Part shown: positions 1-25,243 of the stretch, piece by piece | Position numbering within the stretch: the stretch's first letter is position 1 | Layout of the letters: each line of letters opens with the position of its first letter | IMG/VR virus record: IMGVR_UViG_3300043411_001619 | Coordinates: 1 to 25,243 of that record | Length of the DNA stretch: 25,243 nt | Direction: 5' to 3' (one strand) | From: a virus | Program-made: the position numbers and the translations under genes | Notes under the pieces: generated by a model | Seen by the model: the letters and a program-made list of their open reading frames with translations, nothing else | Databases searched by the model: none | What the model was told of the DNA's origin: nothing

Positions 1-6
1 GACAAA

Positions 7-762
7 ATGAAAGTCCCCTTTAGACTTAACCCTCCCCAAGTTGATTTTATTGAAAAAAGCACTGACCGTAATGTAATCCTAAAAGCTAGAAAGATGGGCT
101 TCAGCTCTCTACTACTAGCTATCGCCTGTTTGAAGTTCCTGCATGGCAAGAATGAGCGTTGTGTGAGTATGAGTTTTGATGTAAATGCCTCTACTAAGCA
201 ACTAGAGCGAGCTAAACAGTTCATTGACTCCTATATGCAAATAAACCGCCTGGACTACAAGTTCAAATACAACACCAAAACTGAAATGGTCTTCCAAAAC
301 GTTGATGAGAATGGCGAGAAGTACACCAATACCCTAAGAATCGGTACTGCCCAGACTGCTGGATTCGGTAGAGGTGACGATATATCCTTTCTGCACCTTA
401 CTGAGGTGTCTCTAGCTGACAATTTAGAAGAATTACTAGCAGGTGTTGGTGAGGCTGTGATAAATGACGCCATGATTACCTTAGAAACCACCGCCAATGG
501 CTACAACCCCTTCAAAACCTTCTGGGACGAGGCTAGTTCTGGGGCTAGAGGCTATTCAGCCTTCTTTTATGAGCCTAAATGGGAGTATTCAGAGGAGTTT
601 TTAGCTAGAAAGCGTAAAGAACTAGGTAGATTATACGACCAAGAGTACCCTGAGAGCCCCGAAATAGCCTTTATTGCCTCTGGACTCCACTTTTTTGACA
701 CTGAGGCTATGCGTTGGTACTTAGATAATCATAAACAACCCATTAAGGACCCCTATGTTTAG
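7..762 (+). CDS. terL: Large terminase, N-terminal ATPase part (split gene)
   Basis: This is the ATP-driven motor half of the phage DNA-packaging terminase, which docks on the portal and pumps DNA into the prohead. The opening (FRLNPPQ, then NVILKARKMGFSS at residues 22-34) matches the adenine-binding/Walker A region of large terminases, with an atypical P-loop ARKMGFSS. FLHLTEV (128-134) fits the Walker B position with E133 as catalytic glutamate, and TTANG (161-165) fits the coupling motif. At 251 residues it is only half of a normal TerL (about 450-550). The frame stops at TAG 760-762, and the nuclease half continues in the +1 frame from 755. Only 6 bases lie upstream of the ATG, so its ribosome site is outside the window. 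The assignment is firm; whether it is made alone or as a fusion is open. Confidence 0.9.
   Translation: MKVPFRLNPPQVDFIEKSTDRNVILKARKMGFSSLLLAIACLKFLHGKNERCVSMSFDVNASTKQLERAKQFIDSYMQINRLDYKFKYNTKTEMVFQNVDENGEKYTNTLRIGTAQTAGFGRGDDISFLHLTEVSLADNLEELLAGVGEAVINDAMITLETTANGYNPFKTFWDEASSGARGYSAFFYEPKWEYSEEFLARKRKELGRLYDQEYPESPEIAFIASGLHFFDTEAMRWYLDNHKQPIKDPYV
745..757 (+). other. Candidate +1 frameshift site (or indel) joining the two terminase frames
   Basis: The bases read AAGGA (745-749), C, then CCC TAT in the first frame. A ribosome slipping +1 on CCC (751-753, re-pairing as CCT) would continue ATG TTT AGG and join the ATPase frame to the nuclease frame as ...KDPMFRRY..., a natural-looking TerL junction. 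The Shine-Dalgarno-like AAGGA just upstream resembles the stimulator in bacterial prfB +1 shifting, and CCC-U slippage is known in Listeria phage PSA. The same AAGGA can also be the ribosome site of the downstream ATG at 755. A single-base error in the run of four C would produce the same picture. Confidence 0.45.
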
Positions 763-1411
763 GAGATACCGTGCTTATGAACCCGATGAGTTCTATTTAG
801 TATTCGCTGATACGGCTGCTGGTGGGGGTGACTTCTGTGCTACCCAGTTTATGTGCCAAAAGAACCTAGACATACCAGTTGTTTATCATAAAAAGACCAC
901 CGCTACTGAAATGACCCCAATACTCCACCAAGAACTAGAACGTATCTATGATATTACTGGTGTTCAACCTGTAGTGGCTTATGAGCGTAACAATGGTGGT
1001 ACATTTGAGCTAGATAGATTGGCTGCTCTTAACAAACGAGGCAAATACCGCATGTATCGCACTAAAGACAAGGCTGGCACATTCAAAGGGCAACGAGATA
1101 CCCCACGTCTAGGTTGGGACACTAACTCCGCTACCCGCCCCGCTATGCTTGCTGACCTTAAACAAGCCATTGACAACAAACTAATTACTATCTATGACCG
1201 CCCCACTATAAATGAGATGTTTAGCTTTGTGGAAGTTCAGACTACTACTAGTTGGCGAGCGGCTGCCGAAAAAGGTGCTCACGATGACCTTATTATGTCA
1301 CTAGCTGGAGTATGGCAAATGTATCAAACTGAGAAACCCATACAACTCCACCGCAACAGAGTAAAAAGAGTACGAAAATATAATCAGTTTACAGGACGAG
1401 TAGAAGCATGA
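755..1411 (+). CDS. terL: Large terminase, C-terminal nuclease part (split gene)
   Basis: This is the RNase H-like nuclease half of the large terminase, which cuts concatemeric DNA at the start and end of packaging. Acidic metal-binding motifs are visible in order: FADTAAGGGD with D19, AYERNNGG with E77, and GAHDDLIMSLAG with D177/D178. Such an acidic set is the signature of the TerL nuclease fold. The ATG at 755 overlaps the end of the ATPase frame by 8 bases, with AAGGA 5 bases upstream, so separate, coupled translation is possible. The combined length of about 468 residues equals a normal TerL, so nothing is missing apart from reading-frame continuity. The fold is clear; only the expression mode is uncertain. 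Confidence 0.9.
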   Translation: MFRRYRAYEPDEFYLVFADTAAGGGDFCATQFMCQKNLDIPVVYHKKTTATEMTPILHQELERIYDITGVQPVVAYERNNGGTFELDRLAALNKRGKYRMYRTKDKAGTFKGQRDTPRLGWDTNSATRPAMLADLKQAIDNKLITIYDRPTINEMFSFVEVQTTTSWRAAAEKGAHDDLIMSLAGVWQMYQTEKPIQLHRNRVKRVRKYNQFTGRVEA

Positions 1412-1455: not shown

Positions 1456-1705
1456 ACCCCCATTCCAAACTGATGATTACGGACGAGCTGCGTATCTTGC
1501 TCTCAAGAACTTTCCGTTTCTAGGAGTGGTTGGTAAAAAAGAAGTTTACCGCAAATTATTCATCTTTGAAGACAGCCCTGAACTTAGGCAGGAATCCGAC
1601 AACTGGGAACACAACCTCACAGAAGAAGCTAGTAACTACAAGAAATACTTTATTAAGATTTCATTTATTAAAAAAGCTCTAAGAGAGGAAACCCTAGATG
1701 TCTAA
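1448..1705 (+). CDS. Small DUF5659-like protein
   Basis: This is an 85-residue soluble protein of unknown function. Its pattern FQTDDYGRAAYLALKNFPFLGV near the N-terminus, then LFIFEDSPELRQ (about 38-49), a mid-protein W, and a Lys-rich helical end resembles the small phage/bacterial DUF5659 family (F-x-T-x-D, AAYL, F-x-F-x-D pattern). I judge this by motif memory only. No catalytic motif, signal peptide or membrane segment is seen. The start ATG at 1448 has only weak ribosome-site complementarity and may rely on coupling from upstream. It overlaps the next gene by 8 bases. Its position after terminase suggests a virion or packaging accessory role, but this is inference. Confidence 0.7.
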   Translation: MSKPPFQTDDYGRAAYLALKNFPFLGVVGKKEVYRKLFIFEDSPELRQESDNWEHNLTEEASNYKKYFIKISFIKKALREETLDV

Positions 1706-3944
1706 ACCTACTATTGGTCTGTGTATAATATCGCCCGACAAACCAACCGCTAAACGTGTCATAGACCGCTACAGCCAATATTTCGATGAGGTTTACCTAG
1801 AACTTACTCCTAACATCAAGAACTTTGCTAACGCCCGCAATAAAGGACTCAAGAAAGTCAAGACTCAATACTGGTGCTGGATTGACAGCGACGACGACAT
1901 CAAGAACCCAGAGTCTATACCAAGACTAATAGAGATATTAGAGAAAGAAAACCTAGACGCTGTATACCTACCTTATGAGTATATGAAGAACGAGAACGGT
2001 GATGTGGTGGCTTACCAATGGCGAGAACGAATTATGCGAACTTCTCACCCATTCAAGTGGGTTGGAGCAATACACGAAACAGTTACTAGCAAACAACAGC
2101 CCCAAGCAACTAAAAGCGAGCTAGTGACTATCTCACACAACCACACCGAAGATGACTCTAAGCGTTCCATCGAGCGTAACGCCAAGATATTAGAAGCTGA
2201 GTACAATAAAGCTAAAAAGGCTAAAAAGGAAGTAGACCCAAGGATTCTTTACTACCTAGGCAGAACTCGCTTCGACCAGCAAAACTATGGAGAGTCTATC
2301 AAGATACTTCGGGAGTATATAGCTAGTAGTGGCTGGGACGAGGAAAAGTATTTTGCTCATATAAAGATTGCTGACTCTTTGAGTGAACTAGAGGAGTATG
2401 ACGCCGCAAAAGAGTGGGCGTTACAAGCTATGGAGATACAACCAGACTACCCAGACGCTTATTTGTCTATGGCTAAGGTTTGCTTTATGAGTGACGAACA
2501 CGATAAGTGCTTAGAGTGGATAGGCACCGCTAAAAAGAAAAAAGCCCCCCAGACCCTATCTGTCACCGACCCTACCTTATACACCTACAGACCGTTGGTG
2601 TTGGCGGCGATGTGCCATTTCCTTAAAGGACGTATAGAAAAAGCCTATGAGCTTATAGAGATAGTCCATCAAGAGAACCCTACTTTCAAAGGATTAGAGG
2701 GTACCTACCGACCCATTAAGGACTCTTACTTTGAATTGCAGGTTATCCGCCAAGCTATAACTCTCGGTGAAGTAGTGCAAGCTAAAGGCGACCTCAAAGG
2801 CTACATCAAATCCCTACCAGCTTTTATTAGAAATGACCTACGGCTGAAAGACTTACGGAAAATAGCCTATCCAGCAAGACAATGGGAAGATAACGAAATA
2901 GCTATATTCTGCGGTGAAACCTATAACCCTTGGGGACCCGACACCTTACATGAGGGTATGGGCGGAAGTGAAGAAGCCATTACCTACCTTGCTCCCGAAC
3001 TAGCTAAGCTTGGCTACAAAGTGACTGTTTATAACCAGAGGGAAGATGAGCTAGAGCAAGACGGTGTTACTTGGAAGCCCTGGGAACTATTTAACCCAGA
3101 CGACAAATTCAACGTTTTCATTGGTTGGCGACAACCAGCAACTCCTTACCAGTTAGGCATTAAGGCTAAATTTATAGGCATGGACATGCACGACTACCTA
3201 GTGGGGCATCAACTTGTAACCGACAGAGCTGCTGAATGTATTGATAGGTTTTTCTTCAAGAGCCAATATCAGCGTGAAGCCGCCAAAAACCTGCCAGATA
3301 GTAAAGCAGCTATTATTCCTAACGGCATAGTAAAAAAACAATTTGAGGGCGACATAGATAAACAACCTTTTAGTGTTGGGTACTTTAGCTCCTACGATAG
3401 AGGGCTACCAGTCTTACTAGACATGTGGCCTACGATACGAGAGGCTTGCCCTGATGCCACCCTAGACATAGCCTATGGCTGGGATAGTTTCGATGGTATG
3501 CACAAAGGCAACCCCGAACAACAACGCTGGAAGTGGTCAGTTATTAGAAAACTCAATGAGCTAAAAGATATGGGAGTGCGAGAACATGGCAGACTAAGCC
3601 ACGAAGAACTAGCTCGTCTAATGAAATCAATTAAAGTCTGGGCTTACCCCACCTCATTCAACGAGATTTCGTGCATCACAGCCATGAAAGCTATGTACTC
3701 AGGAATGATTCCAGTAACAACATACAATTATGCCTTGGTTGAAACTCTTGATAAGTTTGGTAAACAGTGGGGGGTTCCATCAATAAACATACATGAGGAC
3801 AAGAAGACTCAAGAACAATTTGTTAAACGAGTGATTGACGCACTAAAAAACGAAGACTATAATACAGACGAGCAGATAAAATACGCCGAGCAGTTTGCTT
3901 GGGAGAAAGTAGCAAAACAGTGGGCAACAGAGTTCGAGAAATAA
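1698..3944 (+). CDS. Tripartite glycosyltransferase: GT2 + TPR + GT4-like
   Basis: This 748-residue fusion contains two sugar-transfer modules. Residues 1-170 are a GT-A (GT2) domain: NARNKG (45-50), WIDSDDD with the metal-binding DxD-type cluster at 63-67, and AIHE (H126/E127). Residues about 180-330 are helical TPR-like repeats (YYLGRTRFDQQNYGES; EIQPDYPDAY). This GT2-plus-TPR order recalls SunS, the sublancin S-glycosyltransferase. Residues about 395-745 are a GT-B/GT4-like domain: MGGSEEAITYLAPELAKLGY, SSYDRG (564-569), and an E-x(7)-type end at NEISCITAMKAMYSG (655-669). The start has GAGAGGAA 7 bases upstream. Two active centres suggest successive addition of two sugars, possibly onto a protein bound by the TPR. 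Sugar donors and acceptor are unknown. Confidence 0.88.
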   Translation: MSKPTIGLCIISPDKPTAKRVIDRYSQYFDEVYLELTPNIKNFANARNKGLKKVKTQYWCWIDSDDDIKNPESIPRLIEILEKENLDAVYLPYEYMKNENGDVVAYQWRERIMRTSHPFKWVGAIHETVTSKQQPQATKSELVTISHNHTEDDSKRSIERNAKILEAEYNKAKKAKKEVDPRILYYLGRTRFDQQNYGESIKILREYIASSGWDEEKYFAHIKIADSLSELEEYDAAKEWALQAMEIQPDYPDAYLSMAKVCFMSDEHDKCLEWIGTAKKKKAPQTLSVTDPTLYTYRPLVLAAMCHFLKGRIEKAYELIEIVHQENPTFKGLEGTYRPIKDSYFELQVIRQAITLGEVVQAKGDLKGYIKSLPAFIRNDLRLKDLRKIAYPARQWEDNEIAIFCGETYNPWGPDTLHEGMGGSEEAITYLAPELAKLGYKVTVYNQREDELEQDGVTWKPWELFNPDDKFNVFIGWRQPATPYQLGIKAKFIGMDMHDYLVGHQLVTDRAAECIDRFFFKSQYQREAAKNLPDSKAAIIPNGIVKKQFEGDIDKQPFSVGYFSSYDRGLPVLLDMWPTIREACPDATLDIAYGWDSFDGMHKGNPEQQRWKWSVIRKLNELKDMGVREHGRLSHEELARLMKSIKVWAYPTSFNEISCITAMKAMYSGMIPVTTYNYALVETLDKFGKQWGVPSINIHEDKKTQEQFVKRVIDALKNEDYNTDEQIKYAEQFAWEKVAKQWATEFEK

Positions 3945-4420
3945 AACTCACTCAGGGGAAAACAGCTTTAGTAGATAAAGATGATTTCAAGCGACTTTCT
4001 CAATATAAATGGCACTACAATAGTCGAGGGTACGCTACACGGCAAGAGTACCTTGGGAAAGTAAATGGTAAGTATAAACAGAAAACTATTTGTATGCACC
4101 GAGAGGTCAACAACACCCCTGTTGGAAAAGACACCGACCATATCAATGGCAACAAGCTAGACAATCGTAGAGAGAATCTTCGGACCTGTAGTCGCTCACA
4201 AAATGTAATGAATGGCTTGCGAACTGGTAAATACACGGGCGTATCGTTCTTCCATAATAAGGCCAGAAACTGGAAAAGATATTCAGCACGGATTACCGTT
4301 GGGCAGAAGACTACATTTATTGGTTATTATAGAACCGCCGAAGAAGCAGCTTTGGCTTACAACGATGTGGCTACAAAGTATCATGGCGAGTTTGCTCGTC
4401 TTAATAAGGTGGGGGGATAA
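3920..4420 (+). CDS. HNH homing-type endonuclease with AP2 domain, no ATG start
   Basis: This is a selfish HNH nuclease of the type common in phage genomes, which nicks or cuts DNA at a target site and spreads by repair. The N-terminal EIKLTQGKTALVDKDDF motif opens the family. An HNH core follows (MHREV; DHINGNKLDNRRENLR), then a C-terminal AP2 DNA-binding domain (GVSFFHNKARNWKRYSARI ... FIGYYRTAEEAALAYN). No ATG exists at the N-terminus. The options are GTG at 3920 (used here), TTG at 3899, or ATA at 3941, which would give the family-like opening (M)KLTQGK. The gene overlaps the upstream glycosyltransferase by 25 bases or more and stops 1 base before the next ATG. Identity is firm; the start is not. 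Confidence 0.85.
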   Translation: MGNRVREIKLTQGKTALVDKDDFKRLSQYKWHYNSRGYATRQEYLGKVNGKYKQKTICMHREVNNTPVGKDTDHINGNKLDNRRENLRTCSRSQNVMNGLRTGKYTGVSFFHNKARNWKRYSARITVGQKTTFIGYYRTAEEAALAYNDVATKYHGEFARLNKVGG

Positions 4421-4421
4421 A

Positions 4422-5147
4422 ATGAGATTAGCGGCTCTAGCAGTAGCGTATAAAGAAGAACGCTTTATACCAAAGTACATACAATCTTTGCAAGATAGGG
4501 TAGACGAGATTCTAGTATTAAACAGCATCAAGCCGTGGCACGGTGAACGAGCCAAAGATGACAAAACAGCCAAAATAGCTGAGAGTCTAGGAGTTTCAGT
4601 TATACAGTACAGTTGGGACACCGAAGAAGAACAGCGTAACTGGGGGTTAGATTTTCTACAAGACTATGACTGGGTGCTAGTGCTCGACCCTGATGAATAT
4701 TTAACCGAAGACCAATGGTTAGCTCTGTATGACTGGTTAGATAAAGGTGGGGACCCAGTAGACGCCTACGTTTGTGCACAACAAAACACTTACTGGAAGA
4801 AAGGGTTCATTATCGACCCCCAAGAAGATTACAAACAGATAATAGCTGTCAAGCCTCATGTTAGGTTTATAGACAAAAGAGTAGTTAATTGTGCATGGGC
4901 TCATGCCCCAGTAACACTAGAACATTTTTCATGGGCTCGGACAGATGAAGAAGTCTGGGATAAAATAACTCACTACGGACACGCTAATGAATTTGATACC
5001 GAAAAGTGGTTTAATGAGGTGTGGAAGACAGATAGAACAGAAGACCTGCACCCCTTAACACCATCAGCATTAAAAAAAGCAATCAGGGTTCAACTCCCTG
5101 AAGAATTGGAGAAACTACAACTATGGCCCAATCAAAACAAGAGCTAG
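4422..5147 (+). CDS. GT2-family glycosyltransferase
   Basis: This 241-residue enzyme probably transfers a sugar from a nucleotide donor in the cytoplasm. The N-terminus LAALAVAYKEERFIPKYIQS is the usual GT2 opening strand and helix. DEILVLNS (28-35) is the nucleotide-binding strand, and WVLVLDPDEYLTEDQW carries the metal-binding D89-P-D91. I chose ATG 4422 because the domain begins there and GGTGGGGGG lies just upstream; the same frame extends back to 4212 through the HNH gene but makes no sense there. The C-terminal 90 residues include several Trp and His. It lies 1 base after the HNH gene and overlaps the methyltransferase by 25 bases. Donor and acceptor are unknown. Confidence 0.85.
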   Translation: MRLAALAVAYKEERFIPKYIQSLQDRVDEILVLNSIKPWHGERAKDDKTAKIAESLGVSVIQYSWDTEEEQRNWGLDFLQDYDWVLVLDPDEYLTEDQWLALYDWLDKGGDPVDAYVCAQQNTYWKKGFIIDPQEDYKQIIAVKPHVRFIDKRVVNCAWAHAPVTLEHFSWARTDEEVWDKITHYGHANEFDTEKWFNEVWKTDRTEDLHPLTPSALKKAIRVQLPEELEKLQLWPNQNKS

Positions 5148-5623
5148 AGGACTGGTATTCTAAAACAGACCCGTGGGGTTACAACGACAACTCAGACGAT
5201 AAAGTTAGAAAACAAGTTATTCTTGACGCAATTAGCCCATACGCACCATTCAAACGGGCATTAGATATAGGTGCTGGTGAGGGATTTATCACAAAAGATT
5301 TGCCAGCTAAAGAAATTGAAGCTATTGAAGTGTCCGATTCAGCCTCAGAGCGTCTACCGAGCCATGTAAAGCGAGTTAAGAAACCTACTGATAAATATGA
5401 CTTAATCATACTGACAGGCGTGTTATACGACCAATACGAGGGTCAGAAGATGCTAGATTGGGCAAAAGAACATTGTGATGGGATAATCCTAACTTGTAAC
5501 ATTAAAGACTGGGAAGTGAACCCCCTACCAAACGACAATTTAGTACATAGATACGAATTTCCGTACAGAACATATACTCAAAGTTTGAAGGTATACAAGT
5601 GGTCTGGGTCTTCCACAGAGTAG
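5123..5623 (+). CDS. SAM-dependent methyltransferase (NodS/class I type)
   Basis: This is a 166-residue class I methyltransferase. LEDWYSKTDPWGY (8-20) is the N-terminal motif shared with NodS-like and sugar methyltransferases. ALDIGAGEGFIT (46-57) is SAM motif I, EAIEVSDSASERL (66-78) the ribose-binding region, and YDLIILTGVLYDQY (92-105) motif IV. It is shorter than usual but contains all core strands. NodS methylates a de-N-acetylated chitooligosaccharide, and here the next gene is a NodB-type deacetylase, so a deacetylate-then-methylate sequence on an amino sugar is an attractive inference. It overlaps genes on both sides by 25 bases. Small-molecule or protein substrates cannot be excluded. 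Confidence 0.85.
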   Translation: MAQSKQELEDWYSKTDPWGYNDNSDDKVRKQVILDAISPYAPFKRALDIGAGEGFITKDLPAKEIEAIEVSDSASERLPSHVKRVKKPTDKYDLIILTGVLYDQYEGQKMLDWAKEHCDGIILTCNIKDWEVNPLPNDNLVHRYEFPYRTYTQSLKVYKWSGSSTE

Positions 5624-6063
5624 GCGACGAGGGCGAATATACCGACCCAATAGATAAAATCCTCGAATGTGAGGGTGAAATAACTTTTGATGGTGTGTAC
5701 ACCTCTGTCTTTGACCACCGCCATCTGTTAGCTAAAAGAATGCCAATCCTGTTTGTAACAGGTAATCAGATAGGCAGAGATGGATTTTGCAACCGAGAGC
5801 AACTTTTAGAACTGACACGTTTAGGTTTTGTTCTCGGTTGGCATGGCTGGAGCCACGATAAACTAACTGAACTTAGCGAAGACCGCATCTTAGCCGAACT
5901 CCATAAGCCAGATTGGGTAAGCAACATCTACGCCTACCCGCATGGTGACTTTAACGACACCGCAAAAAAGTGGCTAAAGAAACTGGGTTACACAAAAGCT
6001 TACTCAACCACACAAGGAGATGATGATGTCTATAGCCTCAGACGTAGCTATTTGCAAAGTTAA
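5599..6063 (+). CDS. NodB-type polysaccharide deacetylase, compact variant
   Basis: This 154-residue protein matches the NodB homology fold, which removes N- or O-acetyl groups from glycans with a metal ion. Motifs are ITFDGVYTS (28-36, D31), ILFVTGNQIG (50-59), GWHGWSHDKL (80-89, H82 and H86, the H-x3-H metal pair) and YAYPHGDF (111-118). Canonical enzymes read T-F-D-D-G; here one Asp is absent (T-F-D-G), as I recall in some polysaccharide-cluster relatives, so the metal site should still hold one Asp and two His. The start is GTG at 5599; no in-frame ATG precedes the fold. It overlaps the methyltransferase by 25 bases and the dioxygenase by 38. No signal peptide is seen, so action is cytoplasmic. 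Confidence 0.82.
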   Translation: MVWVFHRVGDEGEYTDPIDKILECEGEITFDGVYTSVFDHRHLLAKRMPILFVTGNQIGRDGFCNREQLLELTRLGFVLGWHGWSHDKLTELSEDRILAELHKPDWVSNIYAYPHGDFNDTAKKWLKKLGYTKAYSTTQGDDDVYSLRRSYLQS

Positions 6064-6643
6064 TGGCTTTGCAAGAGTAAAAAACGTCTTTACCAAGCAA
6101 GAAGTCAGCGACATGCGAGCTAAAGCCATTCTGTCTATGAGAGGTAGCCCAGAAGTGGAGATACTAAAGGGTTATCCAACAATTCTGTACCACCCCTCAG
6201 AACTTAATGAGGTAGTTAATGACCCCCGTCTACAAGAGATAGTTAAGGAATACTACGGTGATGTACCGTTTCACCTAGAAACCCAGCAGTTTTACTTCCA
6301 CCTACCAGGCGACCCAGACGAGTTCGCTTGGCATACAGACGAAAGGTTCAGACCAGGCGTGGGTAATCTTTACTTACAGACCGCCATTCTTATAGACGAC
6401 TGGGCAGAGGATAATAGTGCGGTGGAGTTCATTAAGGGTTCACATAAGAAACCGTTCACTAATAGTGGCGACCTACGAAAGTTCGAGAGGAACGGCTTGA
6501 AGGGGACTAAGTTATTTGGTGAAGCTGGCGATGTTTTTACATGGAGTAATACTGTAGTTCATGGTTCTGAAAGCAACCAAGGTAAAAATAGCCGAATGTA
6601 TTTTATGCACGGCTTCAGAGGAGCGGAACTCAGTGAGTGCTAG
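6026..6643 (+). CDS. Phytanoyl-CoA dioxygenase-like Fe(II)/2-oxoglutarate oxygenase
   Basis: This 205-residue protein has the PhyH-family jelly-roll pattern. WHTDERF contains the iron-binding H-x-D (H103, D105). VVHGSESN gives the distal His (H179), and NSRMYFMHG gives the Arg (R190) that binds 2-oxoglutarate. The opening VNGFARVKNVFTKQEV is also typical. Such enzymes hydroxylate or oxidise C-H bonds using oxygen and 2-oxoglutarate. Three ATGs are in tandem at 6020, 6023 and 6026; I chose the third because AAGGAG at 6014-6019 is then 6 bases away. Lying among glycosyltransferases, it may modify a sugar, a lipid-like carrier or a protein side chain; the sequence does not decide which. Confidence 0.85.
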   Translation: MSIASDVAICKVNGFARVKNVFTKQEVSDMRAKAILSMRGSPEVEILKGYPTILYHPSELNEVVNDPRLQEIVKEYYGDVPFHLETQQFYFHLPGDPDEFAWHTDERFRPGVGNLYLQTAILIDDWAEDNSAVEFIKGSHKKPFTNSGDLRKFERNGLKGTKLFGEAGDVFTWSNTVVHGSESNQGKNSRMYFMHGFRGAELSEC

Positions 6644-7202
6644 TATCACGATAAATATAGTCAGTTACAGATATGGGCATTTGGTTGCTCATTGTCTTGA
6701 GAGCGTGTTAGGGCAAACAGTTAAGCCAGATGTTATACGAGTTTACGATGATGGAGTGGGCGATTGTCGCCACATCAAACAACTTTACCCAGAAGTAGAG
6801 TTTATTGAACGTAAAGGTAACTTAGGTATCATAGCCAACTTCAACCAAGCCTTAAATAGAACCGACACCGAAAGAGTTATGTTTTTAGGTGCCGATAATT
6901 GGCTGGCACTCGACGCCATAGAAAAATTAAAAGATGTTGAGGGCGATATAGTTAGTTACGATGGTTGGATATGGGGTAATGGGCATAATGAACTCTGGCA
7001 CCTACCCAATCAACCACATGGTTCAGCACTTTATAATGTTAAAAAAGCTAAAGAAGTTGGTGGTTACTCAGCTAGTGGCAACGTCCACACAGAAGAAGAT
7101 TCAGTAATGTTTAATAAGATGCGTGAGGCAGGGGCTACATTTACCCACGTTTCAGAACCTCTTTTCTTTTATCGTAGGCACAGGAGTAACTTTAACCAAT
7201 GA
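6633..7202 (+). CDS. GT2-family glycosyltransferase
   Basis: This 189-residue GT-A enzyme opens with SITINIVSYRYGHLVAHCLESVL-type sequence, the usual GT2 start, followed by VIRVYDDGVGD (34-44), in which the DD binds the nucleotide, and RKGNLGIIANFNQAL (60-74). The metal motif position is FLGADNW (84-90), so the DxD is degenerate to A-D-N. HTEEDSVMFNKM near the C-terminus fits the catalytic-base (E/D-D) region. The start is GTG at 6633 with AGAGGAG 9 bases upstream; an upstream in-frame start at 6561 would lie inside the dioxygenase gene. It overlaps that gene by 11 bases and the next by 4. Donor and acceptor are unknown. Confidence 0.82.
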   Translation: MSASITINIVSYRYGHLVAHCLESVLGQTVKPDVIRVYDDGVGDCRHIKQLYPEVEFIERKGNLGIIANFNQALNRTDTERVMFLGADNWLALDAIEKLKDVEGDIVSYDGWIWGNGHNELWHLPNQPHGSALYNVKKAKEVGGYSASGNVHTEEDSVMFNKMREAGATFTHVSEPLFFYRRHRSNFNQ

Positions 7203-11832: not shown

Positions 11833-13761
11833 ATGCCAAACAAAAGCTATATGAAACAAAAAAAAGGAAGCGACAACGGAGAGTTTACTTCTGTTGCCCA
11901 GATGTGGCAAGAACGCTACACCAAAGCTCAGACTAATCAAGAAAAATTATTTAAGCGATTTAGCGAGTGGTACGACATGCTTTACGCAGTCATAGACACC
12001 GCTACATTCGCCCCATGGAGAAGTAAGGTATACATACCAATAATGGCTACTAAGTGTTGGAATATGGTGGCTAAGTTTACCCAGCAAAAGCCAGGGTTTG
12101 AAGTAGATGTAAAAGATGATGGTCCTGATACGGAGGAACCAGCTTTAGACGCAACTGAGAGAGAAAAACTATCAGACAAGGTTGCTAAAAAACTAGAGAG
12201 CGATTGGGATAATCCTAGATTTGAAGAACCTATGCGAGATAAATTATTTAGTCCTCTTGTAGATGCTACTGTCACAGGAACGGGTATGGCTAAAGTGGTG
12301 TGGCGAACAAAGAAGCACGTTTCTAAATCTCACCCCCTAGACGAATATGATGAAGTAGATTACGAAAACGACGTAGTGACTACCGAATCTGTTAGTTATA
12401 ACGACTTAGAGCCAGTAAATATTTTTAACGTATTTATCGCTCCAGCCGCTATTAGCTTACAATCTGCACCTTGGATAATTATTAGAGAGTTTAAGTCTTG
12501 GGCTGACTTGAAAGCCGTTAATGACGCATCAGACGCCCCTATATACAAGAACCTAGACTCTATTAAAGGAACAGGTGCCAAGAGCGATAAAGATGCTCGT
12601 TATAACCGTTCACGCAACAGACTGACTAATGAAGAAGACCCAATCAGTGCCGACCAAACAGTAGACCTTATTGAGCTATTTGAGTGCTACGAACGCTCTA
12701 GTAATAAGATTTGTACTTATGTAGCTACTTCTGCCGAACAAACAAAGAAAACACAGTGGATATTAATAAGAGAACAGACTAATCCTTACTGGCATGGTAG
12801 ATACCCACTAGTAGACTTTCATATTCGCAAACGACCTTTCCAGTTCTGGGGTGAGGGTATATTTGAAACTACTCAAAGATTACAAGCAGCCGCTAATGAC
12901 ATTTTTAACCACTACCTAGACAACTGGAACCTATCAGTTGATGGTGGAATAATGATTGACGAAACCAGCCGAGTGAACGACTTTATGGTTGAACCAGGCT
13001 TTGAATTAGTCTACTCAGGCGAAAAACCAACTCAATTTAAGTTCCCAGAACCAAACCCTAACCAGCTAACTCTAGTGATGACTGAGATACAAAAAGCGTT
13101 AGAGGACTCTACAATCTCTAACTTCGCTACAGGAGCACCACACTCAGGACTAGACAAGACGCAAGGTACAGCTACAGGTATAATTCGACTCCAAGAAGCA
13201 GCTAACGACATAATTAGCTTCATGCGAGACAACTACCAACAGTCTATTAAAGAAATTACTCGTATGTGGTTATCCAATAACCGTCAGTTTATGACCGAGG
13301 AGTTTGAAACAATGAGCTTGCAGGGCAACGAAAAGACTCTTGAAAAACTGACACCAGTAGAGATGCAATTCCCAATGGAAGTCAAGGTTGATGACATAGA
13401 CATGCAACCAGTCTCTAAGCAAGAAAAGAGAGCCAACTTCTTAGAGTACCAGAACAGTTTAATGGGATTGCAACAAAGTAGCTTACAACAGGCTCAGATA
13501 GACCCTAGCACCCCACCAGTAATCTTGGACTTCGCACAACTGGCACAAGAACTAGGACAATCGTTCAATGTTAAGAACTTTGAGAGATTTACGTTAGCAG
13601 CCAAAGCACCAGCTATGCCTGAGCAAGGTATGCCACCTGAAGGCGAAATGCCCCCAGAAGAAGGTGATTTGACAGAATTACCAGACGAAGGGCTACCAGC
13701 AGAAGATGAAGATTTAGACGCACAGATAGAACAAGCACTAATGGAACAAGGGATTGAATGA
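11833..13761 (+). CDS. Portal protein
   Basis: This 642-residue protein forms the dodecameric ring at the capsid vertex, through which DNA enters and leaves and to which terminase and tail bind. The length and features fit podovirus-type portals. An N-terminal YDMLYAVIDTATFAPWRSKV helix-loop lies near residues 47-66. The clip/stem region GEGIFETTQRLQAAAND is near 340-356, and the second helical region GLDKTQGTATGIIRLQEAAN near 439-458. The C-terminal 50 residues are acidic and Pro/Gly/Met-rich (MPPEGEMPPEEGD), probably disordered. AAAGAGAAA precedes the ATG; a second ATG at 11851 is possible. It overlaps the next gene by 4 bases (ATGA). Confidence 0.9.
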   Translation: MPNKSYMKQKKGSDNGEFTSVAQMWQERYTKAQTNQEKLFKRFSEWYDMLYAVIDTATFAPWRSKVYIPIMATKCWNMVAKFTQQKPGFEVDVKDDGPDTEEPALDATEREKLSDKVAKKLESDWDNPRFEEPMRDKLFSPLVDATVTGTGMAKVVWRTKKHVSKSHPLDEYDEVDYENDVVTTESVSYNDLEPVNIFNVFIAPAAISLQSAPWIIIREFKSWADLKAVNDASDAPIYKNLDSIKGTGAKSDKDARYNRSRNRLTNEEDPISADQTVDLIELFECYERSSNKICTYVATSAEQTKKTQWILIREQTNPYWHGRYPLVDFHIRKRPFQFWGEGIFETTQRLQAAANDIFNHYLDNWNLSVDGGIMIDETSRVNDFMVEPGFELVYSGEKPTQFKFPEPNPNQLTLVMTEIQKALEDSTISNFATGAPHSGLDKTQGTATGIIRLQEAANDIISFMRDNYQQSIKEITRMWLSNNRQFMTEEFETMSLQGNEKTLEKLTPVEMQFPMEVKVDDIDMQPVSKQEKRANFLEYQNSLMGLQQSSLQQAQIDPSTPPVILDFAQLAQELGQSFNVKNFERFTLAAKAPAMPEQGMPPEGEMPPEEGDLTELPDEGLPAEDEDLDAQIEQALMEQGIE

Positions 13762-15190: not shown

Positions 15191-16087
15191 ATGGCCGAAT
15201 TTACATATAATGATAACGCTATTCGTGAGGACCTTGCAGACATAATTACCAACCTAAACCCAACTGATTACCAGTTGTACACAGGTCTTGGTAAGACTTC
15301 TGCTAAGTCTACACTCCACGAATGGCTAACAGATACTTACAAAACTGTAGGTACTAACGCACAAGTAGAAGGATTTACTCCAAGCTACGCCGCAAGGACT
15401 CGACCAGCAAGAGTTCGCAACCACACGCAGATTATTTCTGTAGACGTTGAAGTTACTGACACAGAACGTGCAGTAGACCAAGCTGGATTTGCTGATAGAT
15501 ACTCATACGAGCTTGACAAAGCTATGGTTGAGTGGAAGAACGACGCTGAATACGCTCTTATGCGTGGTGCAAGCGACGTTACTGGTACAGGTTCAGCAGC
15601 TCGTTACATGGTGGGAATCAAGGGTGCGATTACAACAGTCGTAACTAACCCATCAGGTGTTTCGCTAAGTGAAAACATGTTCAACGACTACCTAAACAAC
15701 GTTTGGAACACTTCTAAAGAAGTAGTAGACGAAGTTTATGTCGGTGGACCACTAAAGCGACGTATTTCAGGCTTTACAGCAGGAAGTACAAAGAATGTAG
15801 ACGCAGAGGACAAGCGATTGACAAACTCTGTAAATGTTTACGAATCAGACTTTGGTATCGTGAAAGTGTTCTTACACCGACACGTTAGCATCGCTGGTAC
15901 AGATACTAACAACGATATGGTTGGTATCAAGAACGACCTATTTAAGGTCGCTCACCTAGAAGGACGAACTCCTAAGCACGTTCCACTTGCAAAAGTTGGT
16001 TCGACAACTAGGGGCATGGTCGAGGGTGAACTTACCCTTGAATACCGAAATCAACTCGGTGCCTTCAAAACTACTGGCTTGCTATAA
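15191..16087 (+). CDS. Major capsid protein (DUF5309/SU10 family)
   Basis: This 298-residue protein is the shell-forming capsid subunit. It matches the DUF5309/SU10-type HK97-fold family: an N-terminal DLADIITNLNPTDYQLYTGL, the STLHEWLTDTY motif (about 40-50), a spine-helix region with RYSYELDKAMVEWKNDAEYA (about 98-117), a VYVGGPLKRRIS segment, and a C-terminal HLEGRTPKHVPLAKVG typical of the A-domain end. AAAAGGAAA precedes the ATG. Codon choice is more uniform (many GGT, GAC, AAC, CGT) than in the carbohydrate genes, as expected for the most highly expressed virion gene. A hairpin follows 12 bases after its stop. Confidence 0.9.
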   Translation: MAEFTYNDNAIREDLADIITNLNPTDYQLYTGLGKTSAKSTLHEWLTDTYKTVGTNAQVEGFTPSYAARTRPARVRNHTQIISVDVEVTDTERAVDQAGFADRYSYELDKAMVEWKNDAEYALMRGASDVTGTGSAARYMVGIKGAITTVVTNPSGVSLSENMFNDYLNNVWNTSKEVVDEVYVGGPLKRRISGFTAGSTKNVDAEDKRLTNSVNVYESDFGIVKVFLHRHVSIAGTDTNNDMVGIKNDLFKVAHLEGRTPKHVPLAKVGSTTRGMVEGELTLEYRNQLGAFKTTGLL

Positions 16088-16099
16088 GTCAGTTCCAAT

Positions 16100-16125: not shown

Positions 16126-16142
16126 TACTAAGGAGACAAAAA

Positions 16143-17195: not shown

Positions 17196-18815
17196 ATGGC
17201 AAGAACACCGCTCGCACCAAGAAGAAGAGCTAGAAACGTACAGACTAAGAAAGTTATTAATCCTGGCAAGGGGCTAAACAACTTAGTATCAGATAACCTA
17301 GTAGACGATGCTGAAGCTTCAGACCTGCTTAATATCCAGTATGTTGAGGCTGGGGCGATTTCTAAGCGAAACGGTTATAGGCAGATAGGTACAACCCTTA
17401 GCAACAACCCTAGAGGGCTAGGGGTCTACACACCTACCTCTGGTACTCGTTACATGGTCACTATAGACGGAACTACCCTAAAATACATCTCTGCCCCTAC
17501 AGGCACTTTCACGGCAGCTACAGGCTCTACTTTTACAGCCGACAGTACAGTTACGTTTACTCAAGCTAGAGGCACACTATATGTATGGAACGGAGTTGAG
17601 GGAGGCACTACTTTCGACGGTTCGGCTTGTGCAAGACCAGGAACAATGCCTAAAGCTTCATTTGGATTATTTTATAAGAGTTATCACTGGGTGTCGGGCG
17701 TAGCTGGTCAGGTAAACCGTTTATACATTTCAGTCGCTACAGATGCCTCAGATTTTACTAACGCCGCTACTACACTACACAACTCTACAGAAGTGCCAGG
17801 TGCTACAGTATTCGCTGGTACAGGTGCAGCGTTCGTGGATATTGATAAAGATGATGGAGACTCCATAACTGGGTTGGCTACATTCCAAGACAGTGTTATC
17901 GTGTTTAAACGTCGCTCAATCCACCAGATAACCCTAGATAGCTCTGGTACACCAACAGTGGTTTTAATTACACGCTCAATAGGTTGTGCCTCACACAGAA
18001 GCATAGAGAACGTAGAAAATGACGTGTTCTTCTTGAGCCGTCAAGGTTACTTCGTATTAGGTAACGAACCAAACTTCTTTAATGCAGTTAGGACTAACGA
18101 GGTTAGTGTCAGAATCCACCCAACGATAGACTTAATCAGTGAGGCTAACTTTAGTAAGGTGTCTTCAATCTTTTATAACAACCGTTACTACTCAGGTATT
18201 CCAGAGGGGGGAGCGAGTGCTAACAATGTCGTGCTAACCTACGACAGAAGATTCTTGGCTTGGGCGAGGAATGAGTTCGCTGCTGAATCATGGACAGTTT
18301 ATACAGATAGTAACGAAGTAGAACACCTTTGTTTCACTAGTGCCAACTCAGCTAAGGTTTACGAGATAGACAACAACTATTCAGATGACGGTTCTGCTAT
18401 AAGTTCATACTGGACTAGCAAGGCTTACGATTTAGGGGAGTTTGACCTACAAAAACGTTGGGTAGACGTAACTATGTTGTTTAGGCAAATCTCAGGCACA
18501 GTCACGATACAGGTGTTTACAGATAATGATACATTAGCAGCCAGTACAACCGTAGAGCCCTCACCTACAGGTGGAGACATGGGAACGATAACGCTAGGGC
18601 TAGAGTTACTGGGCGGTAACGCTGACGACCAAGTATCAACCACCAACAACACCACTAACATCCCTTACCGACTAAGAATATCTAAGAACAGCCGAACAGT
18701 TAAGTTGAAGGTATCGAATGGCATAAACAACGAGAACTTTGTACTACTAGGTATTAACTGGGCATTCTACCCATTCAGCCATTTCAAATTCGACTCAGCA
18801 AATAAACTGTTTTGA
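17196..18815 (+). CDS. Tail nozzle / tubular-protein-B-like virion protein
   Basis: This 539-residue beta-rich protein likely forms the short tail tube or nozzle below the adaptor. The N-terminal basic tail (RTPLAPRRRARNVQTKKV) leads into LNNLVSDNLVDDAEASDLLN (28-47) and GAISKRNGYRQIG, a signature found at the start of many podovirus nozzle proteins. Repeated short strands follow (GTRYMVTIDGTTLKYI; GVEGGTTFDGS; DSVIVFKRRSIHQI; SIENVENDVFFLSRQGYFVL), consistent with a propeller. The stop at 18813-18815 is followed within 2 bases by AAGGAG for the next tiny gene. Name by family resemblance and gene order; I see no tail-length or tape-measure gene, which favours a short tail. Confidence 0.78.
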   Translation: MARTPLAPRRRARNVQTKKVINPGKGLNNLVSDNLVDDAEASDLLNIQYVEAGAISKRNGYRQIGTTLSNNPRGLGVYTPTSGTRYMVTIDGTTLKYISAPTGTFTAATGSTFTADSTVTFTQARGTLYVWNGVEGGTTFDGSACARPGTMPKASFGLFYKSYHWVSGVAGQVNRLYISVATDASDFTNAATTLHNSTEVPGATVFAGTGAAFVDIDKDDGDSITGLATFQDSVIVFKRRSIHQITLDSSGTPTVVLITRSIGCASHRSIENVENDVFFLSRQGYFVLGNEPNFFNAVRTNEVSVRIHPTIDLISEANFSKVSSIFYNNRYYSGIPEGGASANNVVLTYDRRFLAWARNEFAAESWTVYTDSNEVEHLCFTSANSAKVYEIDNNYSDDGSAISSYWTSKAYDLGEFDLQKRWVDVTMLFRQISGTVTIQVFTDNDTLAASTTVEPSPTGGDMGTITLGLELLGGNADDQVSTTNNTTNIPYRLRISKNSRTVKLKVSNGINNENFVLLGINWAFYPFSHFKFDSANKLF

Positions 18816-18896: not shown

Positions 18897-18897
18897 A

Positions 18898-19907: not shown

Positions 19908-19915
19908 ATAGAGCC

Positions 19916-22900
19916 ATAGGTTTCTTTGATAGCGTAAAACGCTTTGGACAAGGAGTATACAACCAAGTTCGCATGGGCGAAGGTAAGACTTTTAGTGATG
20001 CCTATAATACCCCTGAAGAAGAGCGTAGACGACGAGCGAGGGAAGCTGCTAAACAAGCCCCACAAACTCAGCGACCCCAAAATACTCAGTATGTTAATGG
20101 GTTAGTATCTGGTGGGGGCGTAAGAGCCCAAGAAGACCGTAGGCGTGAAGTAGCCAGAAACGCCGCTCGTCAACAGGTACAAAATCCTATTGGTGGTTTC
20201 CTATCTGGGGTACTAAGCAAAGGTAAAGATGTAGTTGACCTAGCTCAAAAAGGCGTAGAGTTTAACGTAGATTTATTAAAAAACCCTGAAAAGCTAGTAG
20301 ATGCTGGTGAAACAGCTAGAAAAGCTATTATTAATGCCACCCCTCCAGCCCAACTTTATAATCGAATCAGAACAGACCAAAGGGTTCAAAAGAATAGGCA
20401 GGAAGTAGACCAAGCCGAACAACGCATAAATAGCCAGCTTAAAGAGCAAACAGGTGGGCAAGTAAGCGACCTAACCTCGGCAATAAAAACTCTATCCGCT
20501 AGACGTAGCGAACTAAGCCCCGAAGGAAAGAAGTCTTTATTAAGTTTACTAGATATAAATAGGCAACTAGCAGGGGCTAGGCAACAAACTGAAGAAGTAA
20601 ACCTACAAAACGTAGACCCAGTAGGCATATTAGAAGATGCTTTATTCACTGGGGGGCAACCTGTAGCTGATATGGCTAGAGAGCTTAGTGCTAGAGGTGG
20701 GGCTAGAATTGTTAAAGAGTTGGAGGACAACAGACTAGCTAAAGCGATGGTGCCGTTCATAGGAGAGACATCAAAGGGTATAGATATTGCACAAGGAAGC
20801 AACCTTGGTAAGTTTGTATTTGGTAGGGGTAAAGTAGATAAAGCATCAGATGATATTAAAAGCTTCACTAAAGACATACCAATCCTTAGAGATATATTCA
20901 AATACGCTCCCCTAGCAACAGCAGGTGGTATCGCTATTAACCTACCTGGAATTGGTGGGACTAAGGCTGGTAAATTTGCAAAAGCATCTAAGGAATTATC
21001 TTTAGTAGATAATGTTGACGATGTTGTAAAAGTAATTGGTAAGTATGATGATTTGAATAAGTTGTTTGGTGAGGTGGACGACACCCTCAAACCAATACTA
21101 CTAGAACGCCTAGCCAAAGAAACAAAACCTAAAGAGATACAAAAATCAATAAGAGGTTCACTAGAAGCAACAAAACGACTCCAACTAGAAGCCCCACAAG
21201 TAGGTAAGACAGACCCACTAGAATCCCTAAAGGGAGAGGCTAAAGACATCAAGACTAGAACTATCAAGACCGCAGACGGTAAGAATGAATATGTTGCTCA
21301 GTTAGGCAATAAAGTAACCGACAGAGTAGGCAGAGAAACAGGGTTCAAAGCCACCGCCACATCTCCAAACTTCAAGTCCGAAGGTGAAATGCAGAAATGG
21401 ATTAGCCAGAACATAGATAACCAATCCACAGCCCCTAAGACAAAGGGAGTAGCCCCTCAACCTACTAAGACAGACCCCCTAGACTCCCTAAAAGCAGAGG
21501 CTAGGAAGTATAAGAGTGCTGCAGACTACCAGTACACTACAGGCGACCCAAAGATTGACGCACAAATCAAACAAGTAGCTGAAATGTCACCCGATGAGTA
21601 TCTGAAGCAAGCGTTTGAAGCTACAGACGGGAAACTAGGTGGGTCTTACGACTCGTGGCTTAAATCCAATGCTCAAGATGCTATGGTGGCTAAGAGATAC
21701 GCTGAAGCTATGCAGAATGGCGACAAGTTCCCAATTGCTTACATAGATAAGGCTATGGGTTCACAAGATGGTCGCAACCGAGCATTGGCAGCAAAGCTAG
21801 CTGGGCGTGACAAAATGCCCGTTGGTATAATCCCCGAAATGACTACAGCAGAGAAAATAGCATTTGCCGAAGCACAGATAAAAAAATATCCCGAAAAGAG
21901 TTACTTAGGTAATAAGTATCGTCGTGAACTTACCAACCTCTACAACCAAGCCACCCAACCCCCTAAGGGTGTGGACAATACTCTTGATGAACTACAAAAC
22001 CTCCAACCAGAAGAAATAGCCAAAATAGATGATTTAGCTAAACAAGCTGGATTTAAGGGGTTAGATGATGTGGCTCAATCCCTAAAACCTAAAGCTGTTA
22101 GTGATATAAGTGAGGCAACCCCACCCAAGACTCCTGTAGACGTTGTGAGCGACGTTAAGAATGAAGTTACTCTTGCACCTAGAACCACAGACCAAGCTGT
22201 TAGAGAGATTGCTGGAGCGTTAGGCAGGGACATTGGTGAGGTAGATGAAAGCCTAGGCACATCTGCAAAAGCTATAAGTGCTGTAACGGGTGGCAAGTTT
22301 ACCAACACCAGAAAACTAAACCCATTTAGACTACTCTCGGATTATCTAGGTGGGGGAGTGGCAAAACAGGGCGAAAAAGCTATAACAGGTAAAGGCTCTA
22401 AGACGTTAAGGGGTATCGAGGGCTTTTTTGGTGGTGCTGGGCGAACTGCTAACGTTAAACAGATACCTAGACAGTTTGAGGGACGACTTGCTAACATTGG
22501 TGACCTAGTAGGCAAAGCCAACAAAGAGTCCAACCGTATACTTGATAGCATTAAAGACGCTAGAAAACAGTTAGACCTTGTAATGCGAGATAAAGCATAC
22601 ATAAAAAGAGTGTATGGCGATGGTGCGGAAAAACTATCTCCTGACAACTTGCCTCCTAAGCTGAAGAAAGTCTACGAACAATACACGGACGCTAACAAGG
22701 TGGTAAACGACATCAACTTGCAGACTAAAGTCATAGACAAAGCTCAGTGGCTTGGTGGCACCAAAGGTCAACATATTGCTCGTAAGTTTGATATACCTAA
22801 AGGCGAAAAAGAAGTTATTAGGGACCACGTTAGAGCTTTATTTGACCAAACAGCAGGGGTTAAACGTAAGGATATATCTAAGTTTGAGGACGAGTTAATC

Positions 22901-25243
22901 GCACTCCTCGATAAAGACCCAATTAAAGCCATAGAGTTTAGAACTGAAATGGCACTAAGAAACCTTGCATTCACTGAAGCACTTGATGGGTTCAAAGCTA
23001 ACGACTTTATTAAGAATGTCGCACCGAACAAAGGCTTTATACAGATGACTGGTAAGAGGTGGGGCAAATATGATGGCAAGTTTATAGAGCGTGGAGCGTA
23101 TGAGCAGCTATCAGGCAATAGACAATTCTTGAGTGATATGTCTACCTCATTTAATAACTTACTTGAAACCTACCAAAGAAGTGGCATCGGACAGTTAGAC
23201 CGAATCCAAAAAGCCTTCAAAACTACCTTAAATGCTGGTACTAGCGTAGGTAACTTATTGTCTAACCCGTTCTTATTCAACCTAGGTGCTGGTACTAACC
23301 CAGTTACTCAGCTATACGATATGGCGGGGGCGTTCAAACAAATGCGTAAGGGTATGTCTGAGGGTAATGTATATCTAGCCAGAGAATTAGGAGTTATTGG
23401 TGGAGACACTGGGCGGATATTAACTGGTTCATCTAATAAGGCAGCTTCAGCATTAGGTGACGCTACGATTGGTATACCGAGAAAAGTATTAAATAAAGCA
23501 GGACAGATTTATGGCGGTATAGATGATGTGGCCAAGCTAGGATTATTTAACCGACTTGTAAAAAAAGGCGTAGACCCTCAAGAAGCCGCCCAAGAAGTTG
23601 CTAGATTTACCCAAGATTACAACCAGGTTGGTAGAACTGTTCAGCTAATAGCTGATATGCCTGTTGTTGGTAAACCTTTCGCTCGATTCTCACCAGAGTT
23701 AGTTAGGATTATCAAGAACAATGTTACGAGAGCACCACACAGAATAATTGCTGGGGTGGCTGGACTTGCATACTTAAATAACCGACTTTCTAAAGACGCC
23801 AACGAAACAGACGAAGAGCGTCGCACTAGAGAAGATGCGGTAGGACAGACTATGATTCCTGGCACAGCTTGGATAAACAAACAAATGGGTGGTCCTGAAA
23901 GAGATGTATCTTTGAACATACCTATAAATGATAGTGCCGTTAATATTGCTCGTATGGTGGGGCTAAACTTCCCTATTGAGCCAGGCATAGACCCAAGCAG
24001 AGCGTTACTAGAACAACTTATACCAGTAGAAATACCAATTAGAAAAAACGCCATAGGAGAGACAGTCTTTGACCCCACTAAAATAGTTACCTCAATGACC
24101 TTTAGACCAATCATCGAACAAGTATTTGACCAAAACTTCATGGACAAGAAAATATCTGACCCAACTAACGTAACCTACGATTCTCAGGGTAACGTTATGA
24201 AAAACACCCCGCCATCCACTAAAGACCAACTAATAAATAGAGGGTTAGCATTTGGAGCGTCGGTACTGCCTATGGGGTATGAGGCGACTTCTATTGGCTC
24301 AAGTATTGCTGGACGACCAGGACCAACAGGCAAAAACCGTAGTGTGATTGACTCAGTGTTGAGAAGTTTTGGGCTAAAGGCTGAAAAGAACGACTCTGAA
24401 GCAAGAGCTAAACGCACCGATACCGCTAACTTCTTTGAAGTAACCAAACCCGCTCAAGACAAGTTCTTACAAGAGAACAAAGACCTAGAGAGCCTATACT
24501 TCCAAGTTTATCCAAAAACCAAAGACCGAAACACTGGCAAGAAAATTAGCGACCAGATAAGCCCTGAAAAGTGGGCAAAGGTTAGTGCTGAGAAGTCGGG
24601 TAGGTTGTTTGAGTTTATGAAAAGTCAAGCAGTTGAGGCTAATAAGCGAGATAAAACCCAACCAATAGACCCTATCTACAAGCTCAAGAAGGACCAAGCA
24701 AGAGAAGTGTTGCGACTACGGGCTAGGCCTACTGGTGATGATGTAGAGCGTGAGCAGATACTACGAGCAAATACGGACTGGTATCCTAAATTAGAACAAA
24801 ACGAGCGAGCTTACTACAAAGATTTAAGCAAATACTTTGATAAGTTGAAAAAAGAAGGGGTAGACATCGACTCCTCACTTAATGACCGAGTGAAGAAGTA
24901 TAACAACGTCAAATACCCTGAACAACCAAAACTACTTAAAGACTACTACAAAATAAAGAGTAAAGACCAAGCCAAAGCATACTTAAAACAATTTGATAAG
25001 GATTGGGTGAGTAGCCAGTTCGATAAAGATTCAGCTAATAGGCTGGAGTATGTGAATGCTAAGAGGGCTATAGAGGGAGCTCCACCTATCTCTAAAAAAG
25101 TTTGGGATAATGTAACCTTTGGCTATGAAGACGATGAGGATAAGGTTGCTACAAAACTTTACTTCAAGGGTAAAGGCAAAGGCTATGGCTATGGTTCGGG
25201 TAGTGGTTCAGGTGGTAAGGGTGGAAAATCAGGCAAAACTGCT
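19916..25243 (+). CDS. Giant polyvalent / internal virion protein (3-prime end cut by window)
   Basis: One uninterrupted frame of 1776 codons runs to the window edge. The N-terminal 300 residues are helical and charged. A ParB-like segment near 590-640 includes MSPDEYLKQAFEA upstream and SQDGRNRALAAKLAGRDKMP, with the D-G-R-x-R core at 618-622. Residues about 1030-1260 carry a layout I recall from large polyvalent proteins of phages: GKYDGKFIERGAYEQL, then TSVGNLLSNPF, then GIDDVAKLGLFNRLVKKGVD, AARFTQDY-like sequence and PFARF. The visible end turns Gly/Lys-rich (KGKGKGYGYGSGSGSGG). Such proteins are packed in the capsid and injected with DNA, sometimes carrying enzymatic domains. The start is inferred as ATA 19916 from the ribosome site; ATG 19973 is the conservative alternative and costs 19 residues. 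Confidence 0.8.
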   Translation, partial: MGFFDSVKRFGQGVYNQVRMGEGKTFSDAYNTPEEERRRRAREAAKQAPQTQRPQNTQYVNGLVSGGGVRAQEDRRREVARNAARQQVQNPIGGFLSGVLSKGKDVVDLAQKGVEFNVDLLKNPEKLVDAGETARKAIINATPPAQLYNRIRTDQRVQKNRQEVDQAEQRINSQLKEQTGGQVSDLTSAIKTLSARRSELSPEGKKSLLSLLDINRQLAGARQQTEEVNLQNVDPVGILEDALFTGGQPVADMARELSARGGARIVKELEDNRLAKAMVPFIGETSKGIDIAQGSNLGKFVFGRGKVDKASDDIKSFTKDIPILRDIFKYAPLATAGGIAINLPGIGGTKAGKFAKASKELSLVDNVDDVVKVIGKYDDLNKLFGEVDDTLKPILLERLAKETKPKEIQKSIRGSLEATKRLQLEAPQVGKTDPLESLKGEAKDIKTRTIKTADGKNEYVAQLGNKVTDRVGRETGFKATATSPNFKSEGEMQKWISQNIDNQSTAPKTKGVAPQPTKTDPLDSLKAEARKYKSAADYQYTTGDPKIDAQIKQVAEMSPDEYLKQAFEATDGKLGGSYDSWLKSNAQDAMVAKRYAEAMQNGDKFPIAYIDKAMGSQDGRNRALAAKLAGRDKMPVGIIPEMTTAEKIAFAEAQIKKYPEKSYLGNKYRRELTNLYNQATQPPKGVDNTLDELQNLQPEEIAKIDDLAKQAGFKGLDDVAQSLKPKAVSDISEATPPKTPVDVVSDVKNEVTLAPRTTDQAVREIAGALGRDIGEVDESLGTSAKAISAVTGGKFTNTRKLNPFRLLSDYLGGGVAKQGEKAITGKGSKTLRGIEGFFGGAGRTANVKQIPRQFEGRLANIGDLVGKANKESNRILDSIKDARKQLDLVMRDKAYIKRVYGDGAEKLSPDNLPPKLKKVYEQYTDANKVVNDINLQTKVIDKAQWLGGTKGQHIARKFDIPKGEKEVIRDHVRALFDQTAGVKRKDISKFEDELIALLDKDPIKAIEFRTEMALRNLAFTEALDGFKANDFIKNVAPNKGFIQMTGKRWGKYDGKFIERGAYEQLSGNRQFLSDMSTSFNNLLETYQRSGIGQLDRIQKAFKTTLNAGTSVGNLLSNPFLFNLGAGTNPVTQLYDMAGAFKQMRKGMSEGNVYLARELGVIGGDTGRILTGSSNKAASALGDATIGIPRKVLNKAGQIYGGIDDVAKLGLFNRLVKKGVDPQEAAQEVARFTQDYNQVGRTVQLIADMPVVGKPFARFSPELVRIIKNNVTRAPHRIIAGVAGLAYLNNRLSKDANETDEERRTREDAVGQTMIPGTAWINKQMGGPERDVSLNIPINDSAVNIARMVGLNFPIEPGIDPSRALLEQLIPVEIPIRKNAIGETVFDPTKIVTSMTFRPIIEQVFDQNFMDKKISDPTNVTYDSQGNVMKNTPPSTKDQLINRGLAFGASVLPMGYEATSIGSSIAGRPGPTGKNRSVIDSVLRSFGLKAEKNDSEARAKRTDTANFFEVTKPAQDKFLQENKDLESLYFQVYPKTKDRNTGKKISDQISPEKWAKVSAEKSGRLFEFMKSQAVEANKRDKTQPIDPIYKLKKDQAREVLRLRARPTGDDVEREQILRANTDWYPKLEQNERAYYKDLSKYFDKLKKEGVDIDSSLNDRVKKYNNVKYPEQPKLLKDYYKIKSKDQAKAYLKQFDKDWVSSQFDKDSANRLEYVNAKRAIEGAPPISKKVWDNVTFGYEDDEDKVATKLYFKGKGKGYGYGSGSGSGGKGGKSGKTA
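21206..21241 (+). repeat. Internal linker repeat, copy 1
   Basis: This copy encodes KTDPLESLKGEAK from residue 431 of the giant protein. It matches the copy at 21467 over about 36 bases with only a few mismatches, 261 bases (87 codons) apart, in the same frame. Confidence 0.7.
21467..21502 (+). repeat. Internal linker repeat, copy 2
   Basis: This copy encodes KTDPLDSLKAEAR from residue 518 of the giant protein, preceded by a Pro/Lys/Thr-rich stretch. It lies just before the ParB-like segment, and the spacing to copy 1 is an exact multiple of three. Confidence 0.7.

Follow-up and report, generated by a model that had tools for sequence, protein, structure and literature searches.

Background

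It is already known that phages purge restriction sites from their genomes. The palindromic sites of orthodox Type II systems are eliminated chiefly in non-temperate phages, and roughly one in ten viral genomes with a known host has lost a site completely or nearly so (Rusinov et al. 2018; PMC6286503). In haloviruses of the HF1 group, CTAG and GATC are totally absent, one member has also lost AGCT, and no member contains any of 21 six-base palindromes (PMC7230728). Staphylococcus phage K, whose host is known, is free of GATC, a loss that is attributed to the host enzyme Sau3A (cited in PMC6532042).

The DNA considered here, called the window, is the whole of IMG/VR record IMGVR_UViG_3300043411_001619, 25,243 bases at 43% G+C, a fragment of the genome of an uncultured phage. 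It is a strong further case of site purging. Phage K lacks one site, whereas the window lacks four tetramers (GATC, GCGC, CCGG and CGCG) and others besides. The set of Rusinov et al. was built on known hosts; here several degenerate sites have gone along with the four tetramers, and missing sets are compared within one clade. That clade differs also from the HF1 group, where the missing set is nearly common to all members: in the clade the sets differ widely and run up to seven tetramers. The closest annotated relative, Caudoviricetes sp. ctf1B273 from Manatee Spring (MW202497.1; portal 38% and stabilization protein 45% identical), is without CGCG and GCGC and nearly without GGCC, but unlike the window it has kept GATC and CCGG. 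What is new is the extent of the purge and its turnover inside one clade.

The genes of the window

The features referred to below are collected in Table 1. Because the record is a fragment, the early genes, with possible methylases and anti-restriction proteins among them, lie outside the sequence.

Table 1. Features of the window, with positions, strand and the family matches behind each assignment
Feature	Position	Strand	Match	Remark
Terminase large subunit, N-terminal (ATPase) part	7..762	+	PHROG phrog_2, E 3e-11	Separate overlapping ORF
Terminase, C-terminal (nuclease) part	755..1411	+	phrog_24361, E 3e-12	Other frame
Large glycosyltransferase gene	1698..3944	+	phrog_13126, E 1e-23	Free of avoided words; homologues in relatives
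HNH endonuclease gene	3959..4420	+	PF13392, E 8e-9	0 of four words; one GGCC at 4261
Portal protein	11833..13761	+	phrog_1216, E 2e-19	Basis of clade and tree
Major capsid protein (DUF5309-like)	15191..16087	+	phrog_1328, E 3e-59	
Head-completion / phage stabilization-like protein	17196..18815	+	phrog_3287, E 1e-17	45% identity to MW202497.1
Very long ORF, runs off record end	19973..25243	+	No family match	Without the four words

The terminase large subunit is spread over two overlapping ORFs in different frames, whereas the matching relative L001 has a single ORF. This may reflect a natural split, a programmed frameshift or an assembly indel. Between terminase and portal (1698-9286) lies a long series of genes of glycosyltransferase, polysaccharide deacetylase, PhyH-like and small-methyltransferase type, which perhaps serve glycan synthesis for the virion or the host surface.

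Four tetramers are absent beyond what composition allows

The first-pass annotation, working by eye, had reported that GATC, GCGC, CCGG and CGCG are totally absent and that a dozen or so GGCC remain. Exact counting over the 25,243 bases gives zero for each of the four and 11 for GGCC, and the four words are absent from each half of the window. A first-order Markov model expects 52 GATC, 42 GCGC, 41 CCGG, 28 CGCG and 62 GGCC, and a second-order model expects 58, 34, 23, 22 and 62 of the same words. The annotation had named a Markov-corrected count as the check on its claim, and with zeros set against 22 to 58 expected per word, composition is not the answer.

Nor is the use of codons or amino acids. 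When synonymous codons are shuffled with the proteins kept (2000 shuffles), the mean counts are 63 GATC, 41 GCGC, 39 CCGG and 24 CGCG, and the minima are 41, 20, 21 and 12. By this null each of the four words, with 24 to 63 sites expected, qualifies as avoided at the level used here, an observed/expected ratio under 0.1 where the expectation exceeds 15 sites. The strictest null fixes the codon junction and the preceding bases as well and absorbs much of any real effect. It still expects 13 GATC, 18 GCGC, 22 CCGG and 4.6 CGCG, a sum of 58 that never falls below 37 in 2000 shuffles. GATC, GCGC and CCGG remain significant under it; CGCG by itself does not reach significance, its minimum being 0.

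The mechanism is directly visible in the choice of codons. Where the next codon begins with C, aspartate is written GAT at none of 84 positions; at the other positions it is GAT 255 times in 485 (p 1e-24). Isoleucine is never written ATC after a codon ending in G (0/76 vs 89/367 elsewhere; p 8e-9). The same holds before G for CGC among the CGN arginine codons (0/62 vs 38/142 elsewhere; p 3e-7) and for CCG among the proline codons (0/130 vs 23/229; p 2e-5). The codon is switched only where a word would form, and therefore composition is not the cause. The HNH gene had also been said to obey the avoidance. It does contain none of the four words, but this is weak evidence, because in 462 bases only about 3 sites are expected.

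The purge extends to other sites and follows known enzymes

Other sites have gone with the four tetramers. Against the codon shuffle, the window contains no CCSGG (12 expected), no YACGTR (15 expected) and no CYCGRG (9 expected), and the FokI site GGATG/CATCC is sevenfold down, at 4 against 28. CCWGG (23 vs 30 expected) and GANTC (63 vs 63) are near normal. Some of these contrasts are of the kind that an enzyme makes: CCSGG is gone and CCWGG is not, YACGTR is gone and ACGT stands at 62 of 80 expected. All six-base palindromes together number 131 against 346 expected, and those without the five rare tetramers number 129 against 290. The shuffle null behind these five-base, six-base and degenerate-site figures has two small genes misframed, about 4% of codons. 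The tetramers AGCT, CTAG, ATAT and TATA are at their normal level. The annotation's view that there is no general loss of palindromes thus stands for tetramers and fails for six-base words.

A separate depletion concerns the non-palindromic GGAGG/CCTCC, found 10 times against 33 expected in the window. This may be avoidance of ribosome-binding sites.

Are six-base palindromes lost as palindromes or as sites? The list of known enzymes was taken from Bio.Restriction (REBASE). Of the six-base palindromes without the five rare tetramers, the 39 that have an enzyme occur 85 times in the window against 253 expected, and the five that have none (ATATAT, TAATTA, TAGCTA, TATATA and TTGCAA) occur 44 times against 38. 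The ratios of the two groups are fully separated in rank (p 1.3e-4), with the caveat that all five enzyme-free palindromes are AT-rich, a possible confound. Across 35 records of the clade, five-base words of the form abSb'a' or abWb'a' have been eliminated in 56 of 650 cells where an enzyme is known and in 1 of 447 where none is (label permutation p 2.5e-4). Six-base words in the 35 records have been eliminated in 185 of 631 cells and 3 of 96 cells, respectively; the pooled six-base ratios of the clade do not differ significantly between the two groups (p 0.14). Taken together, the counts support the conclusion that loss follows known enzyme specificities, not palindromy.

The missing set turns over among relatives

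No direct DNA relative of the window was found in the phage collection. Its clade, uncultured tailed phages, was reached through the capsid and portal proteins, and the tree comprises 57 portal rows. The clade belongs to the Caudoviricetes and is characterized by a DUF5309 capsid and by portal, capsid and stabilization genes that are homologous and keep their order, features which the window shares. The nearest relative is L003 (IMGVR_UViG_3300045391_003513), with a portal 52% and a capsid 64% identical. Within its 33 kb only GATC is missing (0 vs 95 expected). GCGC occurs 150 times, and CCGG is in excess (223 vs 137 expected).

Other members lack other sets. CGCG, GCGC and GGCC are gone or nearly so from L028 and L032; ACGT and TCGA from L042/L043; CGCG, GATC and TCGA from L057-L060; and CCGG, CGCG, GATC, GCGC and GGCC from L067. 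In 14 of the 57 portal rows no tetramer is missing. The extreme relative is L085 (G032, 37,946 bases), which goes far beyond the window: seven of the 16 palindromic tetramers (ACGT, AGCT, CATG, CGCG, GATC, GCGC and TCGA) are at zero where about 817 sites are expected in total. It also lacks CTNAG, CASTG, GTSAC, CGWCG and GGWCC, and CCWGG is at 1/50.

Two side observations belong here. L063 (G021) groups as extreme with L085/L101-L102 (G032), seven tetramers and the same five words, CTNAG to GGWCC, being missing. L043 (G013, 23,482 bases), from which ACGT and TCGA are absent, has an approximately threefold excess of CCGG (184/64) and GATC (186/58).

The portal tree requires at least 10 changes each for CGCG and GATC, 8 for GCGC, 7 for GGCC, 6 for CATG, 5 for CCGG, and 3 each for ACGT and TCGA. 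AATT, ATAT, TATA, TGCA and TTAA are never lost across it. So many changes mean that the avoided set shifts readily in the clade, even among close kin (L066 vs L063).

How common is such a state? Among 70 random viral contigs of at least 8 kb, picked by an arbitrary 14-mer, at least one tetramer is missing in 31 and at least four in 4, so that the four missing tetramers put the window in about the top 6% and do not make it unique. One of these 4, L221 (IMGVR_UViG_3300037189_004223; 13,187 bases), lacks exactly the window's four, an independent loss. L221 is ruled out as a relative, since it resembles Streptomyces phages, a different phage group; possibly it meets the same enzymes in a different host.

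Methylases and nucleases in the clade

The window, a fragment of 25,243 bases with the early region outside the record, contains no recognised DNA methylase. In the related virus records searched, a C5 methylase match occurs only in G005 and G027, and a CcrM/DpnA-like methylase in G029. G005 (the record of L032; 42 kb) is almost without CGCG and GCGC, with 3 and 2 sites left. Of these, two CGCG and one GCGC lie in its methylase gene (15,126-16,436; L112), whose nearest solved relative is the HhaI methylase. The simplest reading is that this gene would be a recent acquisition in which purging is incomplete.

The near-complete G032 (37.9 kb) was scanned with Pfam. No restriction endonuclease family appeared among the scanned ORFs, which carry ordinary phage genes only.

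The search for a host

Bacterial assemblies gave a single clade match, a phage-sized contig of 37.6 kb in a groundwater Candidatus Poribacteria bin. Poribacteria were not accepted as the host. The contig may be mis-binned; the clade member there is a remote relative. In that phage CCWGG is at 1/38, GGCC at 1/98 and GAWTC at 0/94. The bin contains an EcoRII-type (CCWGG) restriction gene that adjoins a C5 methylase, and nine N6/N4 methylase matches lie above the cut-off elsewhere. No HaeIII-type enzyme that would fit the loss of GGCC was found in the bin. Loss of CCWGG and an EcoRII-type system in the same bin are consistent with restriction-driven avoidance, weakly so because 10 of the 35 clade records avoid CCWGG. 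Neither the methylase of the related phage nor the relatives of the glycosyltransferase gave an informative lead to a host.

What removes the sites?

I propose that the sites have been removed by purifying selection exerted by host Type II restriction enzymes on phages that would mostly be without protective methylases, and I consider this very probable. A copy of the genome in which a GATC, GCGC, CCGG, CGCG, CCSGG, YACGTR, CYCGRG or GGATG, or any of many six-base sites, is unmethylated would risk being cut at entry. Synonymous or near-synonymous site-free variants would then take over until zero sites remain. Selection against restriction sites was what the first-pass annotation had suggested, and the suggestion has been strengthened: the loss survives codon-level nulls, follows enzyme specificities, and concerns a set that turns over between relatives. 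I infer that the cutting is done by an enzyme of the host, and that for every missing site the host has, or recently had, a matching enzyme. The predicted enzyme repertoire of the host should accordingly be widened beyond the four tetramers.

An alternative view is that these words are recognized not by Type II restriction but by another host system, such as a phosphorothioation-linked or methylation-dependent defence. Such systems are discussed for the HF1 haloviruses (PMC7230728), GATC doubles as a motif linked to phosphorothioation or Dam, and evidence from a single word would look alike. Across the clade, however, the lost words include CCSGG, YACGTR, GGWCC, CTNAG, GTSAC and CGWCG, and the breadth and degeneracy of this list fit Type II specificities, which makes the alternative improbable.

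Less probable again is that the phage or its relatives encode a sequence-specific nuclease of their own that degrades host DNA and spares a site-free phage. This would equally yield total absence, the window has an HNH gene, and its early region is outside the record. But one phage would require a dozen or more specificities, and in G032, which lacks seven tetramers, the scanned ORFs show an ordinary gene content, so that selection by a nuclease of the phage's own making is disfavoured.

Mutational or codon-usage bias has next to no chance of being the cause: under-use of the dinucleotides CG and TC does lower the expectations, but the four words together would still number 58 to 167 where zero are observed, the closest relative is rich in CCGG and GCGC and lacks GATC only, and the codon-junction nulls refute it.

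Implications

If host Type II enzymes are indeed the selecting agent, then the clade may survive largely by purging sites and not by modification or inhibitors, and may re-tune quickly. The missing words would be a readable multi-enzyme fingerprint of the host, with up to seven tetramers and about ten five-base sites in one phage. I offer this broader view tentatively, at a little short of even confidence. A phage whose host is not in culture is difficult to assign. If the missing words can be read as the host's enzyme list, then host assignment becomes a testable comparison with the restriction genes that candidate genomes carry. The many independent gains or losses of avoidance in the clade, at least 10 for GATC and as many for CGCG, could serve to measure the speed of purging and to see whether gaining a methylase relaxes it. 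The clade merits follow-up: it would face many enzymes together, has few methylases and changes its avoided set readily.
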